Assembly (NCBI GenBank): GCA_016190205.1
Contig: JACPQZ010000065.1
Location: 1 to 30,888, forward strand
DNA from: Candidatus Omnitrophota bacterium
GTDB lineage: Bacteria > Omnitrophota > JACPQZ01
Direction of reading: 5' to 3'
DNA length: 30,888 nt
Shown: positions 7,581 to 30,888 of the stretch, piece after piece
How the letters are laid out: each line of letters starts with the position of its first letter
How positions within the stretch are numbered: the stretch's first letter is position 1
Notes under the pieces: generated by a model
What the model was told of the DNA's origin: nothing
Seen by the model: the letters and a program-made list of their open reading frames with translations, nothing else
The model's database searches: none
Position numbers and translations under genes: made by a program

Positions 7581-7811
7581 TTTCGTACAGCGTACTGCGT
7601 ACAGCGTACAGCGTCGTGCGTACAGCGCAACGTCGGGGCGAGCAAAGATTCGTACAGCGTACAGCGTCGTGCGTACAGCGAACGAAAACCCATTCTCAAC
7701 TTTCACGCAGTACGCTGTACGCTGTACGCTGTACACTTTACGCAGTACGCAGTACGATCGCGTCTGCTTGGAATAAGGTACGCAGTACGCAAGACGCAGT
7801 ACGCAGTACGA
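7581..7811 (+). repeat. GTACAGC/GCTGTAC heptamer array with inverted arms, copy 1
   Basis: The gap between argF and argG is almost entirely degenerate 7-mers. The left part (7581-7680) repeats GTACAGC/GTACTGC, and the right part (7705-7811) repeats the complement, GCTGTAC/GCAGTAC. They flank an unrepeated core at about 7681-7706 (starting AACGAAAACCC). The arms could form a long imperfect hairpin. Two blocks, 7590-7643 (54 nt) and 7664-7715 (52 nt), are identical to 30700-30753 and 30825-30876. Frames running through this DNA are artefacts of the repeat. Confidence 0.85.
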
Positions 7812-7835: not shown

Positions 7836-9023
7836 ATGGCTCGCAAGGATAAAGTAGTTCTAGCGTATTCCGGCGGTCTGGACACTTCCTGCTGTCTCGC
7901 ATGGCTTCAGGAGGAGAGAGGTCTCGACGTCATTACTTTCACGGCGGACCTGGGCGGGGAATTTAAACCCGGGGAGATTCAGCGAAAGGCGCGCGCGAGC
8001 GGCGCTCTTAAGTGCATCATCCGGGACCTCAAGGATGAATTTATCCGGGACTTCTGTTTTCCGGCCCTCAAGGCCCAGGCGGTGTATGAGTCCGGCTACA
8101 CGCTGGGGACTGCCCTGGGCCGGCCGCTGATTGCCAAGCATCTCGTGGATGTGGCCCGCCGGGAGGGCGCGCAATTCGTCTCCCACGGGTGTACGGGCAA
8201 GGGCAATGACCAGGTCCGTATCGAGGTGGGCGTGAGCACCCTGGGAAGGGGGCTTCAGGTCATCGCCCCTTTGAGGGAATGGGATCTTAAAACCAGGGAG
8301 GAGGAGCGGGAGTATCTCAAAGAACGGGGCTTGCCTTTCTCCTCCGGCAGGAAAACTCCCTACAGCATCGACCGCAATCTTTGGGGCGGGAGCATCGAGT
8401 GCGGAGCGCTCGAAAATCCCTGGGTGGAGCCGCCGGAAGAGGTTTATGGACTGACGAAAAGTCCAGCCGGCGCGCCTCAAAAACCGCAGGTGATACGTAT
8501 TGGTTTTCGCAAAGGCGTGCCGGTCTCCATAAACGGCCGGGCCCTGAGCCCTGTTCATCTGGTGAAGCGTCTCAATGCGCTTGCCGGAATGCATGGGGTG
8601 GGGCGCTCGGATTTGGTGGAAGACCGCCTGGTGGGCATTAAATCCCGCGAGATATATGAGGCGCCTGCGGCGACGACGCTACTGATAGCCCACAGGGGCC
8701 TGGAAAACCTGGTCCTGACGCGGGAGGTCATCCATTACAAAGAGGCGCTTTCGAATCAGTATGCCCAGATGGTCTACGGCGGTCTCTGGTTCACCCCCCT
8801 CAAAAGGGCCTTGGATGCCTTTTTTGATGAGACGCAGAAGGACGTGACCGGCGAGGTAAAGGTGAAACTGTTTAAAGGTTCCTGCCAGGTCGTAGGCCGG
8901 CGCTCGGCCCAGTCGCGCTACCGCTGGGAATGGGCCACGTATTCGGCGGGCGACCGGTTCGACCGCACGCAGGCCGCCGGGTTTATCAAGCTGTGGGGTT
9001 TACCTTATGAACGTGCCAAATAA
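7836..9023 (+). CDS. argG: Argininosuccinate synthase
   Basis: ArgG joins citrulline and aspartate using ATP to give argininosuccinate. The PP-loop SGGLDTS is at residues 12-18. The conserved HGCTGKGNDQVRIE block and the YSIDRNLWGGSIECGALENPW segment follow. Its 395 residues are normal for the family. ATG 7836 is supported by AGGAGG just upstream. Repeat arrays border it on both sides (7581-7811 and 9031-9400), so it may be transcribed at a different level from the rest of the arginine cluster if the arrays fold in RNA. Confidence 0.97.
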   Translation: MARKDKVVLAYSGGLDTSCCLAWLQEERGLDVITFTADLGGEFKPGEIQRKARASGALKCIIRDLKDEFIRDFCFPALKAQAVYESGYTLGTALGRPLIAKHLVDVARREGAQFVSHGCTGKGNDQVRIEVGVSTLGRGLQVIAPLREWDLKTREEEREYLKERGLPFSSGRKTPYSIDRNLWGGSIECGALENPWVEPPEEVYGLTKSPAGAPQKPQVIRIGFRKGVPVSINGRALSPVHLVKRLNALAGMHGVGRSDLVEDRLVGIKSREIYEAPAATTLLIAHRGLENLVLTREVIHYKEALSNQYAQMVYGGLWFTPLKRALDAFFDETQKDVTGEVKVKLFKGSCQVVGRRSAQSRYRWEWATYSAGDRFDRTQAAGFIKLWGLPYERAK

Positions 9024-9030
9024 ATGCGTC

Positions 9031-9400
9031 CGTGAATCGTGAATCGTGGATCGTGGATCGTGAATCGCCATTTCGTGAATCGTGAATCGAAAAAAAGAAA
9101 CCAGATACCAGTTGCCAGTAACCAGAAGATACCAGATGCCAGAAACCAGAAAAAATACGAAATTCGAATATCGAGATTCGAAGCAAGTTAGAAATTCGAA
9201 ATCAGAAATTCAAAACAACCGTTTTCGAATTTTGAATTTTGGTCAATCGAATTTGCTTCGTGCTTCGAATTTCAAGCTTTGGATTTCATCTTTTCTATCT
9301 GGTATCTGGTCTCTGGAATCTTCTGGTATCTGGTTGCTGGTTTCTGGTTACTCAAGCCGTCAACTACGTTTCACGAATCACGATTCACGAATCACGACGA
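9031..9400 (+). repeat. Three-layer nested inverted repeat array between argG and argH
   Basis: This 384-bp gap has no gene. Its order is A-B-C-C'-B'-A'. A is CGTGAATC units (9031-9090), B is CCAGATA/CCAGTAA units (9101-9150), and C is CGAAATTC-like units (9157-9215). C' is the complement, TTCGAATTT-like (about 9221-9290), B' is CTGGTATCTGGT-like (9296-9350), and A' is CGATTCACGAATCACG-like (9371-9397). Each layer is complementary to its partner at the same depth, so the whole gap could fold into one long segmented hairpin. The core near 9211-9273 recurs at about 19296-19358. Confidence 0.85.
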
Positions 9401-9407
9401 GGCTCGC

Positions 9408-10790
9408 ATGACTAAGTTATGGGGAACACGTTTCGGCAAAAAGACGAACAGGCGCATCGAGGAGCTCACGTCGAGCCTGGCCTTTGATGCCCGTCTTGCG
9501 CCCTATGATGTTGAAGGGAGCATCGCGCACGCCCAGATGCTGGGGAAGACCCGCGTCATCAGCCGCGCGGATTCAGACCGCCTCGTGAAGGGCTTGGGGC
9601 GGATTCAGAAAAAGCTGGCGCAGGGCAGGCTCCGCCCGGATCCCAGGGCCGAGGATGTGCACACCTGGATTCAAGGTCTTCTGGAAAAAGAAGTGGGGAG
9701 GGTGGCAGGAAGGCTTCATACCGCGCGCTCACGGAACGATCAGATCGTTCTGGATGAGAAGCTGTACGTGCGGGCCGAGGGGCAAAAGATCCTGTCGGGG
9801 ATCCGCAGCCTGCAGGGGGTGATTCTCGCCCTCGCGCAGCGCGAGAGAAAAACGGTGATCCCCGGATATACCCATTTGAGGAGGGCCCAATGCGTCCGGC
9901 TGTCGCATCACCTTTTGGCGTATCTTGAGATGCTGGAGCGCGACCGCGGCCGCGTTCAGGGTTGCTTGGGGCGCGCAGACGAGCTCCCGTTGGGGGCATG
10001 CGCCCTTTCGGGCACCGCTCTACCGATCGACCGGCACCAGGTGGCCAGGGCGCTCAAATTCACGCGGGTGAGCGCCAACAGCATGGATACGGTGAGCGAC
10101 AGGGATTTTATTGTGGAGTTTCTGGGGGCGCTGTGTCTGTTCAGCCTGCATCTTTCCCGGATGGCCGAGGACCTGATTCTCTGGACGGGCGAAGAGTTCG
10201 GCCTCGCCTTACTGGATGAGTCTGTTGAGACGGGGTCGAGCATTATGCCTCATAAAATGAACCCGGACCCCCTGGAGCTCGTACGGGGCATGACCGGCCG
10301 TATTTTTGGAAATCACCTGGCCCTTCTCGTCGTCCTTAAAGGGCTCCCGCTCACGTACAGCCGAGACCTGCAGCATGACAAAGAGCCGCTCTTCGATTCG
10401 GTGGACCAGGTGAAGGGCGCCTTGGATATGATGGCGCAGGTTTTTAAGGGCTTAAGGATCCGGCATGCGCGTGCCCGGGTGCTTACGCAGGATGAAGCGC
10501 TGTACTCCGTGGATATCGTGGAGTTTTTGATCCGGAAGGGGCTTTCGTACCGCGAGGCGCATGATGTGACGGGCCGCCTCATCCGGCACTTAAGCCAACA
10601 TGGCAAGCCGCTGAGGGATATGTCCAAAGAAGCGCTGCGCGGGTTCTCGCCGGCCTTAACGCCTGACGTCAAGGGGATCATCAATCCCGTCCTGTCGGCG
10701 GGGAGGAGGAATTCGTTCGGGGGAACGGGTGACCGCTCTCTCGGGCACGCGCTTCGCCTGTGGAAAAAAAGGTGCTCCGGTCATGCATGA
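9408..10790 (+). CDS. argH: Argininosuccinate lyase
   Basis: ArgH splits argininosuccinate into arginine and fumarate, the last step of the pathway. The fumarase/aspartase-superfamily signature GSSIMPHKMNPD is present, as are HTARSRNDQ and GYTHLRRAQ. It has 460 residues, the usual length. ATG 9408 is preceded by GAGG (9399-9402) at 5 nt and gives the standard N-terminus MTKLWGTRF. A longer frame starting at 9279 is rejected because its extra 43 residues are translated repeat DNA. The gene overlaps lysA by 8 nt, physically joining the arginine and lysine clusters. Confidence 0.97.
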   Translation: MTKLWGTRFGKKTNRRIEELTSSLAFDARLAPYDVEGSIAHAQMLGKTRVISRADSDRLVKGLGRIQKKLAQGRLRPDPRAEDVHTWIQGLLEKEVGRVAGRLHTARSRNDQIVLDEKLYVRAEGQKILSGIRSLQGVILALAQRERKTVIPGYTHLRRAQCVRLSHHLLAYLEMLERDRGRVQGCLGRADELPLGACALSGTALPIDRHQVARALKFTRVSANSMDTVSDRDFIVEFLGALCLFSLHLSRMAEDLILWTGEEFGLALLDESVETGSSIMPHKMNPDPLELVRGMTGRIFGNHLALLVVLKGLPLTYSRDLQHDKEPLFDSVDQVKGALDMMAQVFKGLRIRHARARVLTQDEALYSVDIVEFLIRKGLSYREAHDVTGRLIRHLSQHGKPLRDMSKEALRGFSPALTPDVKGIINPVLSAGRRNSFGGTGDRSLGHALRLWKKRCSGHA

Positions 10791-19241: not shown

Positions 19242-19370
19242 GAGATGCACGACCAAATCCGAAATCCGGATATCGAAATTCGAAATCCGAAATACAAAAC
19301 GCAGTTTTCGAATTTTGACTTTGGTCCTTCGAATTTGCTTCGTGCTTCGAATTTCGAGTTTCGAATTTAA
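19189..19370 (+). repeat. Repeat block at the folK 3' end and folK-panC gap
   Basis: CCATCAG-type units (19189-19219) form the FolK tail. After the stop, CGAAATCC/CGAAATTC units (about 19257-19296) are followed by the complementary TTCGAATTT units (about 19306-19368), a C-C' inverted pair as at 9157-9290. The core GAATTTGCTTCGTGCTTCGA (about 19330-19349) is shared with 9249-9268. The 183-nt gap holds nothing else recognisable apart from the panC start region. Confidence 0.8.
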
Positions 19371-19424: not shown

Positions 19425-20366
19425 ATGCGAGTCGTACGTACGATCAGCGCCTTGCGGCGCTGGGTTCGCTCTGAAAAGCGCAAGCGACATTCCATCGGTT
19501 TTGTTCCCACCATGGGGGATTTACACGCAGGGCATCTTGCGCTCATCCGCCGGGCGCGGCGGGAGAATGCGCGGGTCGTTGTAAGCATCTTCGTGAATCC
19601 GACACAGTTCAACGAGGTACGTGATTATCGCCGCTACCACCGGAACCTTGAGGCCGATCGGCGGCAGGCTTCCGCGTGCGGGGCGGATCTTGTTTTCGCG
19701 CCCAGCGCGCGCGAGATGTACCCCTTTGGTGTTGGGTCACGGGTACGCGCCCCCCGCCAGGCGGAGGGACTGTGCGGGGCCTTCCGGCCGGGCCATTTTG
19801 ACGGCGTGGCTACGGTGGTAGCAAAGCTGTTTAACTGCGTGGAGCCCGACCGGGCGTATTTTGGCCGGAAGGATGCCCAGCAGGCCGCCGTCGTGCGCCA
19901 GCTGGTGAAGGATCTCAATTTTCCGGTCGAGGTTCAGGTGTGCCCCACGGTCCGGGACCGAGACGGACTCGCCTTATCCAGCCGGAATCGAAGGCTCCGG
20001 CCGCGCGAGCGCGAGCAGGCAGTGCGTATTTGGCGCGCGCTCGCGGCGGTGCGAGACGAGGTGCGGGGGGGAAAGGGCGATCGGGCCTCCCTGCGCGCCT
20101 TTTTGCGGTCGCGGCTCAAAGGCCCCGGCATGCGGCTGGAGTATGCGGAAGTGGTAGATCCGGCGACCTGTGTGCCCGTCAACCGTCATTGGTCGCGGGC
20201 CCTCGTCGCGGTGTGTGTGTGGGTCGGTGATACCCGGCTCATTGATAACGTAATAGTCCGTCGTCCGTCGTCCGTCGTCCTGCGAAAGGATCGCGACGGA
20301 CGCAGGACGCAGGACGCAGGACGCAGAACGAGAAAGGAAGTCGTGATATGTTACGGCAGATGTTGA
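19425..20366 (+). CDS. panC: Pantoate-beta-alanine ligase with repeat-derived C-terminal tail
   Basis: PanC condenses pantoate and beta-alanine with ATP to give pantothenate. The HIGH-like motif appears in [11 protein letters not shown], followed by [19 protein letters not shown] and the [18 protein letters not shown]-equivalent loop. The family normally ends soon after the TRLIDN motif (near 280 residues). Here about 35 extra residues follow, encoded by GTCCGTC/GGACGCA repeats (20256-20328), and the stop lies 19 nt inside panD. ATG 19425 gives the standard N-terminus, with no good ribosome binding site. Confidence 0.94.
20256..20328 (+). repeat. Inverted GTCCGTC / GGACGCA heptamer arrays at panC 3' end
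   Basis: GTCCGTC units run from 20256 to 20280 and GGACGCA units from 20298 to 20328. A 9-bp perfect stem, CGTCCTGCG (20276-20284) with CGCAGGACG (20301-20309), can close a hairpin between them. The block is translated as the PanC tail and lies just before the panD ribosome binding site (AAGGA at 20334-20338). Confidence 0.8.
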
Positions 20367-24410: not shown

Positions 24411-27042
24411 AAGCTATCCCGAAACCCCCCTTCTGCTGCAATCGCTGCTTTTGGCCTGCGACCAAGCCCGGGTACCCGCGCGAACAGCGCGGGTGGGCGA
24501 AGGAAGTGCCAGAGCACGTAGTGCGACGGCCGCCTTTGCGCCGCTCGGCTTGCGCACCGCTGCGGGTGCGCGGCGCCTCACGTCGCTGCGGCTCGGCTTC
24601 AAAATCAGCGATTTCGCTACGAAGCGAGGTTTCGGGATAGCTTCTAAGATTTTTTGTAAGGTCTTTTTCGGAGCCGCGCTCGTCCTGGCGTGCGCGGCGC
24701 CGTTTTCTCCTGCGCGCGCCAAAGAGACCCAAGACGATCTTTTATTTGCAAGGAACGCTTTTCAAGATGGGTTTTACGGGATCGCGCTTTCCAAGCTGGA
24801 CAACATCATCAAGCGCGGGTTGGAGCCGGAGGTCCTGGACGAGGCGCTCTTATTGAGGGGAGAAACCCTGTTTTTTCAAGGGCGTTTGCCGGAGGCCGGG
24901 TTGGATTTCAAGCGAATCCTGGAAGAGTTTCCCAAAGGGCGGTTTGCTGCCCACGCCCAGCACTGGATGGGGGAGGTGGCCTTCCGTGAGGACCGCTTTG
25001 ATGAGGCCGTCGACGCCTATTCCAAGTCCGTTCGCCACTTTCCAAAGTCGGAGGTAGTGGCGCTCTCCTTATATGGGCTGGGCTGGAGCTATTACGAGCA
25101 GGGGAGGGACGATGAAGCGGCGGAGGCCTTCAAGCGGATCATCCGGGAACACAGCCGGCACGAGGTTTTCGGCGAGTCGCAGTTTAAATGGGCCGAGTGC
25201 ACTTGGTTTTTGGGGAAATATGACGAATCGGCCTATGCGTTCCGTCAGTTTATCAAAAAGCATCCACGGTCTGGCCTCGTACCCGTCGCCTATTTCTGGC
25301 TGGGGGAGAATAATTATGCCCTGGGGCGATACTCCCAAGCCGGGGAAGATTACCGCGAAGCGGTCCGGCTGGCGGGTGACGCCGGTGAAGGGGACGCGGA
25401 GTGGGTGGGAAAGGCGCATTATGGCGCTGCCTGGGCGGCTCTTAAAGCGGGTGATTACGGGGAGGCGCAGGCCCAAGTGGAACGTTTCATGGAATATTTC
25501 GCTGGGGACCGGCTGTTCGAGTCGGCCCTGTTTTTGAAGGGGGTCGTTCTGGGAGAGCAAGGCGATCATCAGGAATCTTTACAAGTTTATGACGAGCTCT
25601 TGGACAGGTTTCCCGACGGCGCTTGGGCCGGCCACGCCCTCTTCCGGAAGGGCAGTCTGGAGCTTGAAGAGGGGGATTACAACCATGCCCTGGCCACTTT
25701 TCTTGAGCTCGATCAGCGCGCCCAGGGAGGGCTATTGTATGACGGCCGATACCTCATCGGAAAGAGTTACGTCGCGCTGGGGATGTACGGGCATGCCATC
25801 CGGACGCTTGAGTCACTCGCGGGCGACCCCGCCGTCCGGGAGGACCTGCGTGTGGGGGCGCGGGCACTTTTGGCAGACACGTTTCTAAAATCAGGACGGG
25901 TGGAGGAGGCGCTTGGAGCATACGATGAGATTTTGAACCAGCATGCCCAGCATCCCCTCGCCTCGATGGCACAGTACCGGGTGGGCGAGATCTTTTATAA
26001 GCAGGGTCAGTATGAGCAGGCGATGACCGCCTTCCGGAACCTGATGGTCAATCTCCGCCACGCAGCCCTTGAGGAAAGGGCCCAATATAAACTCGCCTGG
26101 TGTAATTTTCACTTGGGCGATTACAAAACGGCCGGTCAGCTTTTTGCGGCGGTGGCGCACGACTATCCCCAGTCTCCCTGGGCGTGGGATGCCCGTCTTA
26201 TGGCTGCCGAGTCTGTCTTCAACGCAGGGGATTTCAAAGAGGCCTTGAAACGCTTTCGCGAGCTTCGGGAGGAGACGGAGGAGCCGGAGGAAGGGCTGCA
26301 GACGGACTACGGCATAGCCTGGAGCCTGTGGCAGTTGGGGGAAGAGGGGCACGCGGCTCAAATCTTCTCTGCCCTTGTGAGCGAATACCGGCAGCATGCG
26401 CTTACGGCGGACGTCCTATTTTGGCTGGGCCAATATTACTCCGACCGGGGAGAGTGGAACGAGGCCCAGCGGATGCTTAAGGAAATCCCTCTCCGCTTCC
26501 CCCAGCATGAACTGGTCCCTGACGCCCTGTACGCATCGGGCTGGGCCTTCTACCGGCAGGGGGATTTCCTGTCGGCCCTGGAAACATTCAAGGGATTTTC
26601 TGCGCGCTTCCGTGAGGGCCCTCTATCGGGAGATGCCCTCTATTGGACTGCACAGATTGAGAAGGGACAGGGGAAGCTCAAGGAGTCAATCCTCCATTTT
26701 CAAAAGGCCCTGGAGGTTGCAAACGCGGCGCTGAAGCCGCGCATCCAGTATGAACTGGCGCGGTCGTATCAGGACAGCCAGGACCCTGACCAGGCCATAT
26801 TGGAATATCTGAAAGTAGCCTATCTCTATCCTGATGTAACTGAGTGGGTTACGAAGGCAAACCTGCAGGCGGCCTGGCTTTTTGAGCAGGGCAAACGTTG
26901 GTCCGAAGCCGAAACGATTTACACGAAACTCGCTTCGGCCGAAGGTGAGGAGGCCACCGTCGCCAAGAACCGGTTAAATTGGATAAAAGAGAATGTTAAC
27001 CACGCAGGAGAGACCAGTAACCAGAAACCAGTGACCAGATAG
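24382..27042 (+). CDS. Multi-TPR periplasmic protein; start codon unresolved
   Basis: From about residue 115 the frame is a long series of tetratricopeptide-like repeats (roughly 18-20), of the BamD/YbgF type found in envelope proteins. A signal peptide is visible just before ([21 protein letters not shown], cleavage likely after ARA). The coordinates give the full open frame from ATG 24382, but the first 88 or so residues translate the end of uvrA and the inverted-repeat element and are not natural protein sequence. No ATG, GTG or TTG lies between the element and the signal peptide: candidates are GTG 24493, TTG 24550 inside the element, or the rare ATT 24649. The final residues (TSNQKPVTR) are encoded by CCAG repeats. 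It precedes exbB-exbD-tonB and probably works with them. Confidence 0.8.
24408..24646 (+). repeat. 239-bp element with 19-bp perfect terminal inverted repeats (MITE-like)
   Basis: TAGAAGCTATCCCGAAACC (24408-24426) is repeated in perfect inverted orientation at 24628-24646. The interior is rich in smaller hairpins, such as CCCGCGC/GCGCGGG (about 24475-24493) and CGCACC/GGGTGCG (about 24553-24571). The arms show further weak complementarity inward (AATCGCTG and TTTTG blocks). It carries no transposase and resembles a non-autonomous or REP-like palindromic element. No target-site duplication was evident. It contains the uvrA stop codon. Confidence 0.7.
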
Positions 27043-27256
27043 ATTCCAGAAGCCAGATACCAGAGAGAAATGATGAAATTCGAAATACGAAATTCGAAGC
27101 ACGAACAAATTCGAAATCCGAAATGTAGAACACTGGATTTTGAATTTCTAATTTCGAATTTCGATATTGTTCGGATTTCGATATTCGAATTTCGGATTTT
27201 CCTGGTTTCTGGTATCTGGTCTCTTCTGGTAACTGGCAACTGGTATCTGGTATCTA
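27011..27256 (+). repeat. Nested inverted repeat array between the TPR gene and exbB
   Basis: Order B-C-C'-B': CCAGTAA/CCAGAAA units (27011-27062, including the TPR gene's last codons), CGAAATTC/CGAAATCC units (27072-27122), the complementary TTCGAATTT units (about 27137-27200), and CTGGTATCTGGT units (27202-27256). It is the same B and C families as 9101-9350 without layer A. The conserved core lies here in its reverse-complement form (GAAGCACGAA at about 27097-27106). The 244-nt gap holds no gene. Confidence 0.85.
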
Positions 27257-29631: not shown

Positions 29632-29982
29632 ATGTCTTGGAACATCCTCATTACAAGCGCTGACAGTAAAGAGAAGGCGCGCACGATCGCTCAACATCTC
29701 CTTAAGAATAGACTGGCGGGCTGCGTGACGGTCATTCCTCGCGTCGAATCCACGTATTGGTGGAAGGGCAAGCTGGAAAGGGCGCGGGAATGGCTTTTGC
29801 TTATTAAAGGCAGATCCAGCCACTTTTCCAAGGCCTCGCGGGAAATCAAGAAGATCCATTCCTATGAGTGTCCCGAAATTATTTCTATTCCCATTCAGAG
29901 GGGGAGCGCAGACTATCTCGCGTGGCTGGATGCTTCTCTGGGAAGTAAAAAGTTAAAAGTTAAAAGCCAAAAGTACAAGTAA
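29632..29982 (+). CDS. cutA: Divalent-ion tolerance protein CutA1
   Basis: CutA1 is a small trimeric ferredoxin-like protein linked to divalent-metal tolerance; its exact role is not settled. The family pattern is clear: NRLAGCVTVIPRVESTYWWKG, then HSYECPEIISIPI (usually HPYE-PEI) and YLAWL near the C-terminus. Family members are about 100-110 residues; this one has 116. The last 10-12 residues (KKLKVKSQKYK) are encoded by AAAAGTT/AAAAGTC repeats beginning near 29945. ATG 29632 lacks a strong ribosome binding site but gives the normal N-terminus. Confidence 0.93.
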   Translation: MSWNILITSADSKEKARTIAQHLLKNRLAGCVTVIPRVESTYWWKGKLERAREWLLLIKGRSSHFSKASREIKKIHSYECPEIISIPIQRGSADYLAWLDASLGSKKLKVKSQKYK

Positions 29983-30062
29983 AAAGTCAAAAGTAAGTCG
30001 GATCGGTGGCCTTTTAGGTTTTAAGTTGTACTTTTGGCTTTTGGATTTTAAGTTTTAACTTT
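29945..30062 (+). repeat. AAAAGTC-type inverted heptamer array after cutA
   Basis: AAAAGTT/AAAAGTC/AAAAGCC units (29945-29994) face their complement (30014-30062). A 17-nt block, AAAAGCCAAAAGTACAA (29962-29978), is perfectly complementary to 30026-30042. The long A-rich/T-rich hairpin covers the gap between cutA and the PilZ gene. It could also act as a terminator. Confidence 0.85.
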
Positions 30063-30682: not shown

Positions 30683-30888
30683 GTTTCGTACAGCGTACTG
30701 CGTACTGCGTACAGCGTACAGCGTCGTGCGTACAGCGCAACGTCGGGGCGAGCGGGATTCGTACGGCGTACAGCGTCGTGCGTACAGCGCAACGTCCGCG
30801 CGAGCAGGATTCGTACAGCGTACTGCGTCGTGCGTACAGCGAACGAAAACCCATTCTCAACTTTCACGCAGTACGCAGTACGCAGTAC
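30683..30888 (+). repeat. GTACAGC heptamer array, copy 2, running off the window
   Basis: Same family as 7581-7811. The blocks 30700-30753 and 30825-30876 are identical to 7590-7643 and 7664-7715. An extra near-duplicate of the middle part (about 30760-30810) makes this copy longer between the blocks. The right inverted arm (GCAGTAC units) begins at 30868 and continues past the end. Confidence 0.85.

Follow-up and report, generated by a model that had tools for sequence, protein, structure and literature searches.

The window, a stretch of 30,888 nucleotides on contig JACPQZ010000065.1, belongs to a metagenome-assembled genome (MAG) of a Candidatus Omnitrophota bacterium (1.65 Mb, 93% complete). 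The genes argG and argH are separated in it by a gap of 384 nt (9024-9407), which is occupied by heptamer arrays in the block order A-B-C-C'-B'-A'. The genes and arrays of this locus are as follows:

7836-9023, plus strand: argG, argininosuccinate synthase, the upstream neighbour (Pfam PF00764/PF20979).
9031-9089 (9031-9067 and 9073-9089), plus strand: left arm of layer A, CGTGAATC-type heptamers, pairing with 9366-9397 (TRF and repeat search).
9096-9152, plus strand: left arm of layer B, CCAGNNA-type heptamers in two sub-arrays, forming 49 pairs with B' (repeat search).
About 9154-9217, plus strand: left arm of layer C, GAAATTC-type heptamers, forming 47 pairs with C' (repeat search).
About 9223-9292, plus strand: right arm of layer C (C'), the complement (repeat search and fold pairing).
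9296-9352, plus strand: right arm of layer B (B'), CTGGTNN-type, the complement (repeat search and fold pairing).
9366-9397, plus strand: right arm of layer A (A'), CACGAAT/CACGATT-type, the complement (repeat search and fold pairing).
9408-10790, plus strand: argH, argininosuccinate lyase, the downstream neighbour (Pfam PF00206/PF14698).

A sequence-only reading had described the gap as three heptamer families nested in mirror order, with arms complementary at matching depths that form a segmented hairpin of over 100 bp per arm, and this description agreed with both the repeat search and the fold. The RNA fold of 9020-9410 was predicted at −171.3 kcal/mol, compared with −93.4 ± 5.6 kcal/mol for shuffled sequences (z = −13.8), and 124 of the 140 predicted pairs joined matching layers (A-A' 28, B-B' 49, and C-C' 47). 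The matching layers were also paired when DNA parameters were used (28, 49, and 37 pairs, respectively). The stem is broken by mismatches of 1-2 nt along its length, and the ungapped inverted repeats extend over 31 nt for A/A' (84%), 60 nt for B/B' (78%), and 48 nt for C/C' (73%). Each block had also been taken as one degenerate tandem repeat, which is correct as to the heptamer families but not as to the continuity of layer B. This layer consists of two sub-arrays (about 30 and 24 nt) with a mutual offset of about 3 nt, and thus its left arm is not a single continuous heptamer run.

argG and argH were adjacent in 25 relatives, the nearest of which share only the phylum with this genome, and their gaps were short (−17 to 264 nt) and array-free. 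By comparison with these distant relatives, the nest was probably inserted between argG and argH. Versions with only the outer or only the inner layers, which the sequence-only reading had proposed to seek in orthologous gaps, were found at other loci of the same genome but not in the gaps of the relatives.

BLAST of the gap against its own genome returned 113 matches, and its closest copies elsewhere were at 96% and 91%. Across 367 kb (about a quarter of the MAG), 174 period-7 arrays were identified; other periods were almost absent except for multiples of 7 and for 24, the unit of layer B, and zero period-7 arrays were found in the shuffled control. Beyond what had been read from the gap, its layers therefore belong to a dispersed, genome-wide family, of which the number of tandem units varies between copies. 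Like the heptanucleotide repeats known as STRRs, the nest is composed of tandem, degenerate, intergenic heptamers. Further elements were located in the window by the repeat search, without assignment to a strand:

7584-7810: heptamer-armed palindrome in the argF-argG gap, CGTACAG/ACGCTGT family; on contig C13, this family also borders an S23 gene.
19255-19368: solitary C palindrome with neither A nor B.
20256-20330: GTCCGTC/GGACGCA heptamer pair.
27009-27255: second B(C) nest, without layer A, whose best match is the argG-argH element in minus orientation (82%).
29943-30062: AAAAGTT-type heptamer palindrome.
30687-30888: CGTACAG-family copy, cut by the contig end.

Seven contigs of this genome (C71, C60, C37, C74, C12, C70, and C24) and the right end of the window terminate within such elements, and the elements thus fragment the assembly. 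The distribution of CCAGNNA heptamers across the phylum was patchy, with more than 100 matches in each of two genomes (G056 and G253), tens in each of three (G016, G249, and G251), and none in most others.

The layers behave as separable modules, as had been proposed; solitary B, solitary C, and the nests B(C), A(B), and A(B(C)) all occur in the same genome, and B also surrounds other palindromes. The cores of 29 paired B elements ranged from 24 to 379 nt and were of at least five kinds: some were nearly empty, and others held the C palindrome, a second palindrome (P, CTTCGAA), pieces of a further sequence, or an S23 gene. In the complete clusters, C was inside B in 14 of 14 and A was outside B in 7 of 7. 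The A(B(C)) composites of the window and of contigs C71 and C70 had cores that were 91-97% identical and flanks that were unrelated, indicating that the composite itself was copied. Successive insertion into the centres of earlier palindromes and one element built of concentric layers had been offered as the two origins of the nest, and each is partly right, as modules were nested and the finished A(B(C)) was then copied whole. The fixed order of A outside B outside C could instead mean a single ancestral composite rather than repeated targeting, although solitary copies of C interleaved by similarity with those enclosed in B. At another locus, about 125 bp of GC-rich sequence (L083, about 1253-1376) interrupts a P palindrome exactly at its centre, between CTTCG and CGAAG. 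The palindrome is itself within B arms, and its counterpart is unbroken in L080 and L082; the insert adds a third level of nesting, different in kind from the others.

The B palindrome represents the terminal arms of an element that carries an S23 (23S_rRNA_IVP, PF05635) gene. The gene is intact between B arms at C24:40299. About 1.2 kb away, a second B copy shares these arms and the beginning of the gene but has an internal deletion of 263 bp; its remainder is identical at 205 of 216 positions. A third copy, which also includes the beginning of the gene, is truncated by the end of its contig. As the deleted copy retains the arms and the gene start, the gene-less B hairpins are internal-deletion derivatives of the S23 element. 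The copy of the nest in the window carries no gene, and the S23 gene between arms was found for its layer B; no gene-bearing copies of layers A or C were found. Layers A and C probably also derive from S23 elements. Inverted heptamer arrays enclosed four of the five S23 genes of the genome, with a different heptamer family at every gene; no inverted arm pair was found at the fifth (C16). The parent of layer B encodes S23 only, with no transposase gene within the element, and the S23 protein is not a transposase. Neither the S23 protein nor the argG-argH gap, searched as DNA, had a match in phages.

S23/IVP genes in 23S rRNA have been known since the 1990s, and orphans (named 'four helix bundle protein') are present in many genomes, where they are sometimes filed as CRISPR-associated. 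PF05635 was present in 114 of the 193 genomes of the window's phylum. We compiled a test set of 107 S23 loci from about 20 phyla (80 loci from named genomes, plus plasmids and the window's phylum). Period-7 arrays were found within 220 bp of the S23 gene on the left at 68, on the right at 80, and on both sides at 59 of the 107 loci. The left and right arrays matched as inverted heptamers (6-7 of 7 positions) at 46 of the 59 loci, compared with 3% for re-dealt pairs. The rate of period-7 arrays dropped to 4-5 of 66 at a distance of 600-800 bp from S23 genes, and control loci of argH had arrays on one side in 7 of 25 cases and on both sides in 0 of 25. A period-7 arm was present at 89 loci and a period-8 arm at 10 more, so that 99 of 107 had one or the other on at least one side; the remaining 8 had neither. 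The period-8 loci include L107, L154, L163, L169, L172, L182, L189, and L200, and L151 has period 9. Unit length is thus a property of the element, mostly 7, with period 8 at about a tenth of the S23 loci. The same hairpin anatomy was found in complete plasmids and isolates. For example, an S23 gene of Xanthomonas vasicola, 90% identical to the solved XCC0516 (2GSC), lies between GGGAATC arms.

Precise insertion was observed by comparing filled and empty sites. The Trichormus plasmid C locus (L123) has 428 bp inserted with GTAAT on both sides relative to plasmids of Nostoc linckia and Tolypothrix (L210/L211, ~98% identical), and that of Nostoc ATCC 53789 pNsp_a (L216) has an insert of 417 bp with a TTCTA duplication relative to Nostoc C057 (L218). 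In the window's own phylum, L105 has an insert of 440 bp with a GTTT duplication relative to congeneric species (L224, L227, and L228), and its insertion point is between a terminator-like hairpin with a T-tract and a promoter-like TTGACA. The target duplication was clear in these three pairs, all of them gene-bearing; the flanks of L118, L122, L124, and L220 were too diverged or ambiguous. The chance of a 4-bp match at one fixed junction was estimated at about 1.4%, assuming an AT-rich composition. Other heptamer-armed inserts, with different units, were seen in related genomes (L222 and L226) at the intergenic point of L105, just past the terminator-like hairpin.

An S23 gene lies between cmr2 and cmr3 in Picosynechococcus PCC 7003, and the related plasmid of PCC 7002 lacks this copy. 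S23 genes in cas operons are therefore at least partly insertions. In three cyanobacterial plasmids (L119, L128, and L220), a cas operon was interrupted at the cas6-cas4 or the cmr2-cmr3 junction by an S23 gene whose arms were heptamer arrays or similarly periodic.

We consider it probable that the argG-argH gap consists of three nested, gene-less, MITE-like hairpins of a widespread class of mobile 'S23 elements'. A complete element comprises, in about 420-480 bp, a mostly purine-rich degenerate heptamer array, a short S23 gene, and the complementary array, and its S23 (23S_rRNA_IVP) product is a four-helix-bundle protein. Full elements enter intergenic or operon gaps and generate a target duplication of 4-5 bp. 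Loss of the gene by internal deletion leaves a bare hairpin, which would be mobilised in trans; newer elements would settle at the centres of older hairpins to give A(B(C)), and the finished composite is copied onward as a single unit. The S23 protein may bind the heptamer arms, as RNA or as single-stranded DNA, and the cut with a stagger of 4-5 nt may be made in trans by a host or foreign enzyme. Insertion may prefer hairpin centres, and such targeting would fit the nests, the insert of L083, and the known intervening sequences (IVSs), which take the place of tetraloops in rRNA helices and so occupy a hairpin tip (PMC4990558).

An unlikely alternative is that REP/BIME-like hairpins are moved in trans by a Y1 tyrosine (RAYT/IS200-like) transposase, with S23 as a mere passenger. 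Y1 transposases act on hairpins in single-stranded DNA, and the genome contains four PF01797 genes. However, at the three PF01797 loci examined, none of the genes lay between inverted heptamer arms (one had a distant single array). Target duplications of 4-5 bp are not expected for Y1 transposition, and the association of S23 with the arms is much too tight for a passenger. The elements share with REP, BIME, and REPIN sequences and their RAYTs the form of dispersed intergenic palindromes that are thought to be moved in trans, but they have heptamer-array arms in place of GTAG/CGTC-tagged units of 20-40 nt.

The resemblance of PF05635, with its solved relative XCC0516, to Avd of diversity-generating retroelements (PMC10053308) raises the rather improbable alternative that S23 is homologous to Avd and that hairpin RNA, which the arms can form, is copied by a reverse transcriptase supplied in trans. 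Unlike a genome with a diversity-generating retroelement, the 93%-complete MAG yielded no RVT_1 match despite its hundreds of arrays, and the clean duplications of 4-5 bp look like a fixed stagger in DNA.

Selection of the nest as a regulatory RNA hairpin of the host argFGH transcript (acting in attenuation, in processing by RNase III, or on the stability of the mRNA) is very unlikely. The very stable fold in an operon gap and the heptamer palindrome in the argF-argG gap are in its favour, but the same element is found at dozens of unrelated loci and the gaps of the 25 relatives lack it. Furthermore, the Rfam scan of the window gave no match, and arm pairing in the nest rests on a common heptamer consensus and not on base-by-base covariation. 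The order of variant units matched only weakly between the two arms across 47 S23 loci, which argues against strong covariation at the variable heptamer positions. In the B arms, pairing at variable positions was 51%, compared with 67% after re-dealing (29 pairs, own genome); the lower value is attributed to a conserved asymmetry between the arms combined with two insertion orientations. A regulatory effect of the nest may exist as a by-product.

The formation of the arms at each locus separately, by replication slippage and local inverted duplication, is highly implausible. The number of units does differ between copies, and slippage may have changed it after insertion, but the enrichment is limited to period 7, its multiples, and 24, the same arms surround unrelated cores at many loci, and clean empty sites exist; the earlier argument against slippage is thus borne out. 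An assembly artefact is scarcely credible even with seven contigs ending inside elements, because argG-argH synteny is conserved in the relatives, further copies of the composite occur at other loci, many copies of the elements are internal to contigs, and complete plasmids and isolates have the same anatomy.

The S23 elements thus favoured were compared with known systems. The 23S rRNA IVSs with an S23 ORF, such as that of Coxiella burnetii (~430 nt), have been called selfish and horizontally spread (PMC4990558). As in these IVSs, the complementary arms on either side of an S23/PF05635 gene form a long stem; compared with their description (a 28-bp stem), the elements reported here have periodic heptamer arms and are mostly gene-less and nested, and the argG-argH nest is between protein genes rather than within a 23S rRNA gene. 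Short length, lack of coding sequence, inverted terminal arms, and derivation by internal deletion are shared with MITEs, and a target duplication like that of MITEs was seen in three gene-bearing relatives. Unlike in MITEs, the parent encodes S23 instead of a transposase, and the arms have a periodic sequence and can differ from each other. The element is therefore IVS-like outside rRNA, with MITE-like derivatives, and its nested architecture has no description in the open literature covered.

Heptamer repeats have been described again and again, with their origin left unexplained. GGGAATC of Xanthomonas and GGGGA(C/T)T of Nostoc are degenerate, tandem, and intergenic, and frequently form convergent inverted pairs, of which a Xanthomonas genome has 70-75; they were not found to be tied to mobile elements, and S23 was not mentioned (Rehm et al. 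2015, PMC4692102). In the present study, GGGAATC was found as the arms of the X. vasicola S23 gene. Period 7, degenerate units, and an intergenic or hairpin-tip position are features that the present elements share with the heptanucleotide STRRs found in heterocystous cyanobacteria, with P6b, a heptanucleotide hairpin in the tRNA-Leu intron of Nostoc (PMC3488679), with the TAACTGA repeats of Beggiatoaceae (PMC4679880), and with the 49 GGGACCG elements of Geobacter metallireducens (PMC2700814). In the passages covered, these are described as separate curiosities, with regulatory guesses and no link to S23. S23/IVSs in rRNA, heptamer repeats of several lineages, and the resemblance of S23 to Avd are thus known separately. 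No paper joining heptamer repeats to S23 genes was found in the part of the open literature covered, and the link of scattered bacterial heptamer repeats to one kind of mobile element appears to be new.

We tentatively suggest, as a possibility, that S23 elements are a distinct minimal class of prokaryotic mobile elements. In such a class, a four-helix-bundle protein without known catalytic function would recognise the periodic heptamer arms of the hairpins and direct a host enzyme to insert them at hairpin centres, and a dedicated process would write the arms stepwise, usually by 7 nt at a time but sometimes by 8 and rarely by 9. Most bacterial 'heptamer repeats' would then be relics, and nesting would be the signature of loop targeting. 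The tie between S23 and heptamers explains both the repeats and the orphan S23 genes and makes a mobile element without a known enzyme directly testable, and nesting explains how concentric palindromes can arise. 23S_rRNA_IVP genes inside cas operons have been read as possible CRISPR-associated functions (PMC3936711); those studied here are flanked by arms of heptamers or of similar periodicity, and the copy between cmr2 and cmr3 is an insertion. For annotation, S23 genes in operons (cas, arg, nrd, and tra) should be treated as insertions and not as pathway partners.

Two smaller observations concern nesting. A small GC-rich palindromic module (GTCCGCC...GGCGGATCCGCC...) was present inside C arms at L062:19563-19825, L065:10562-10835, L067:6349-6763, and L068:15289-15578. 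On the Nostoc plasmid pNsp_c, a gene-less insert (L215:872-1100) with outer arms GGGAACTCTTAA and inner arms GGGAACAGG has the appearance of a cyanobacterial nested heptamer hairpin.
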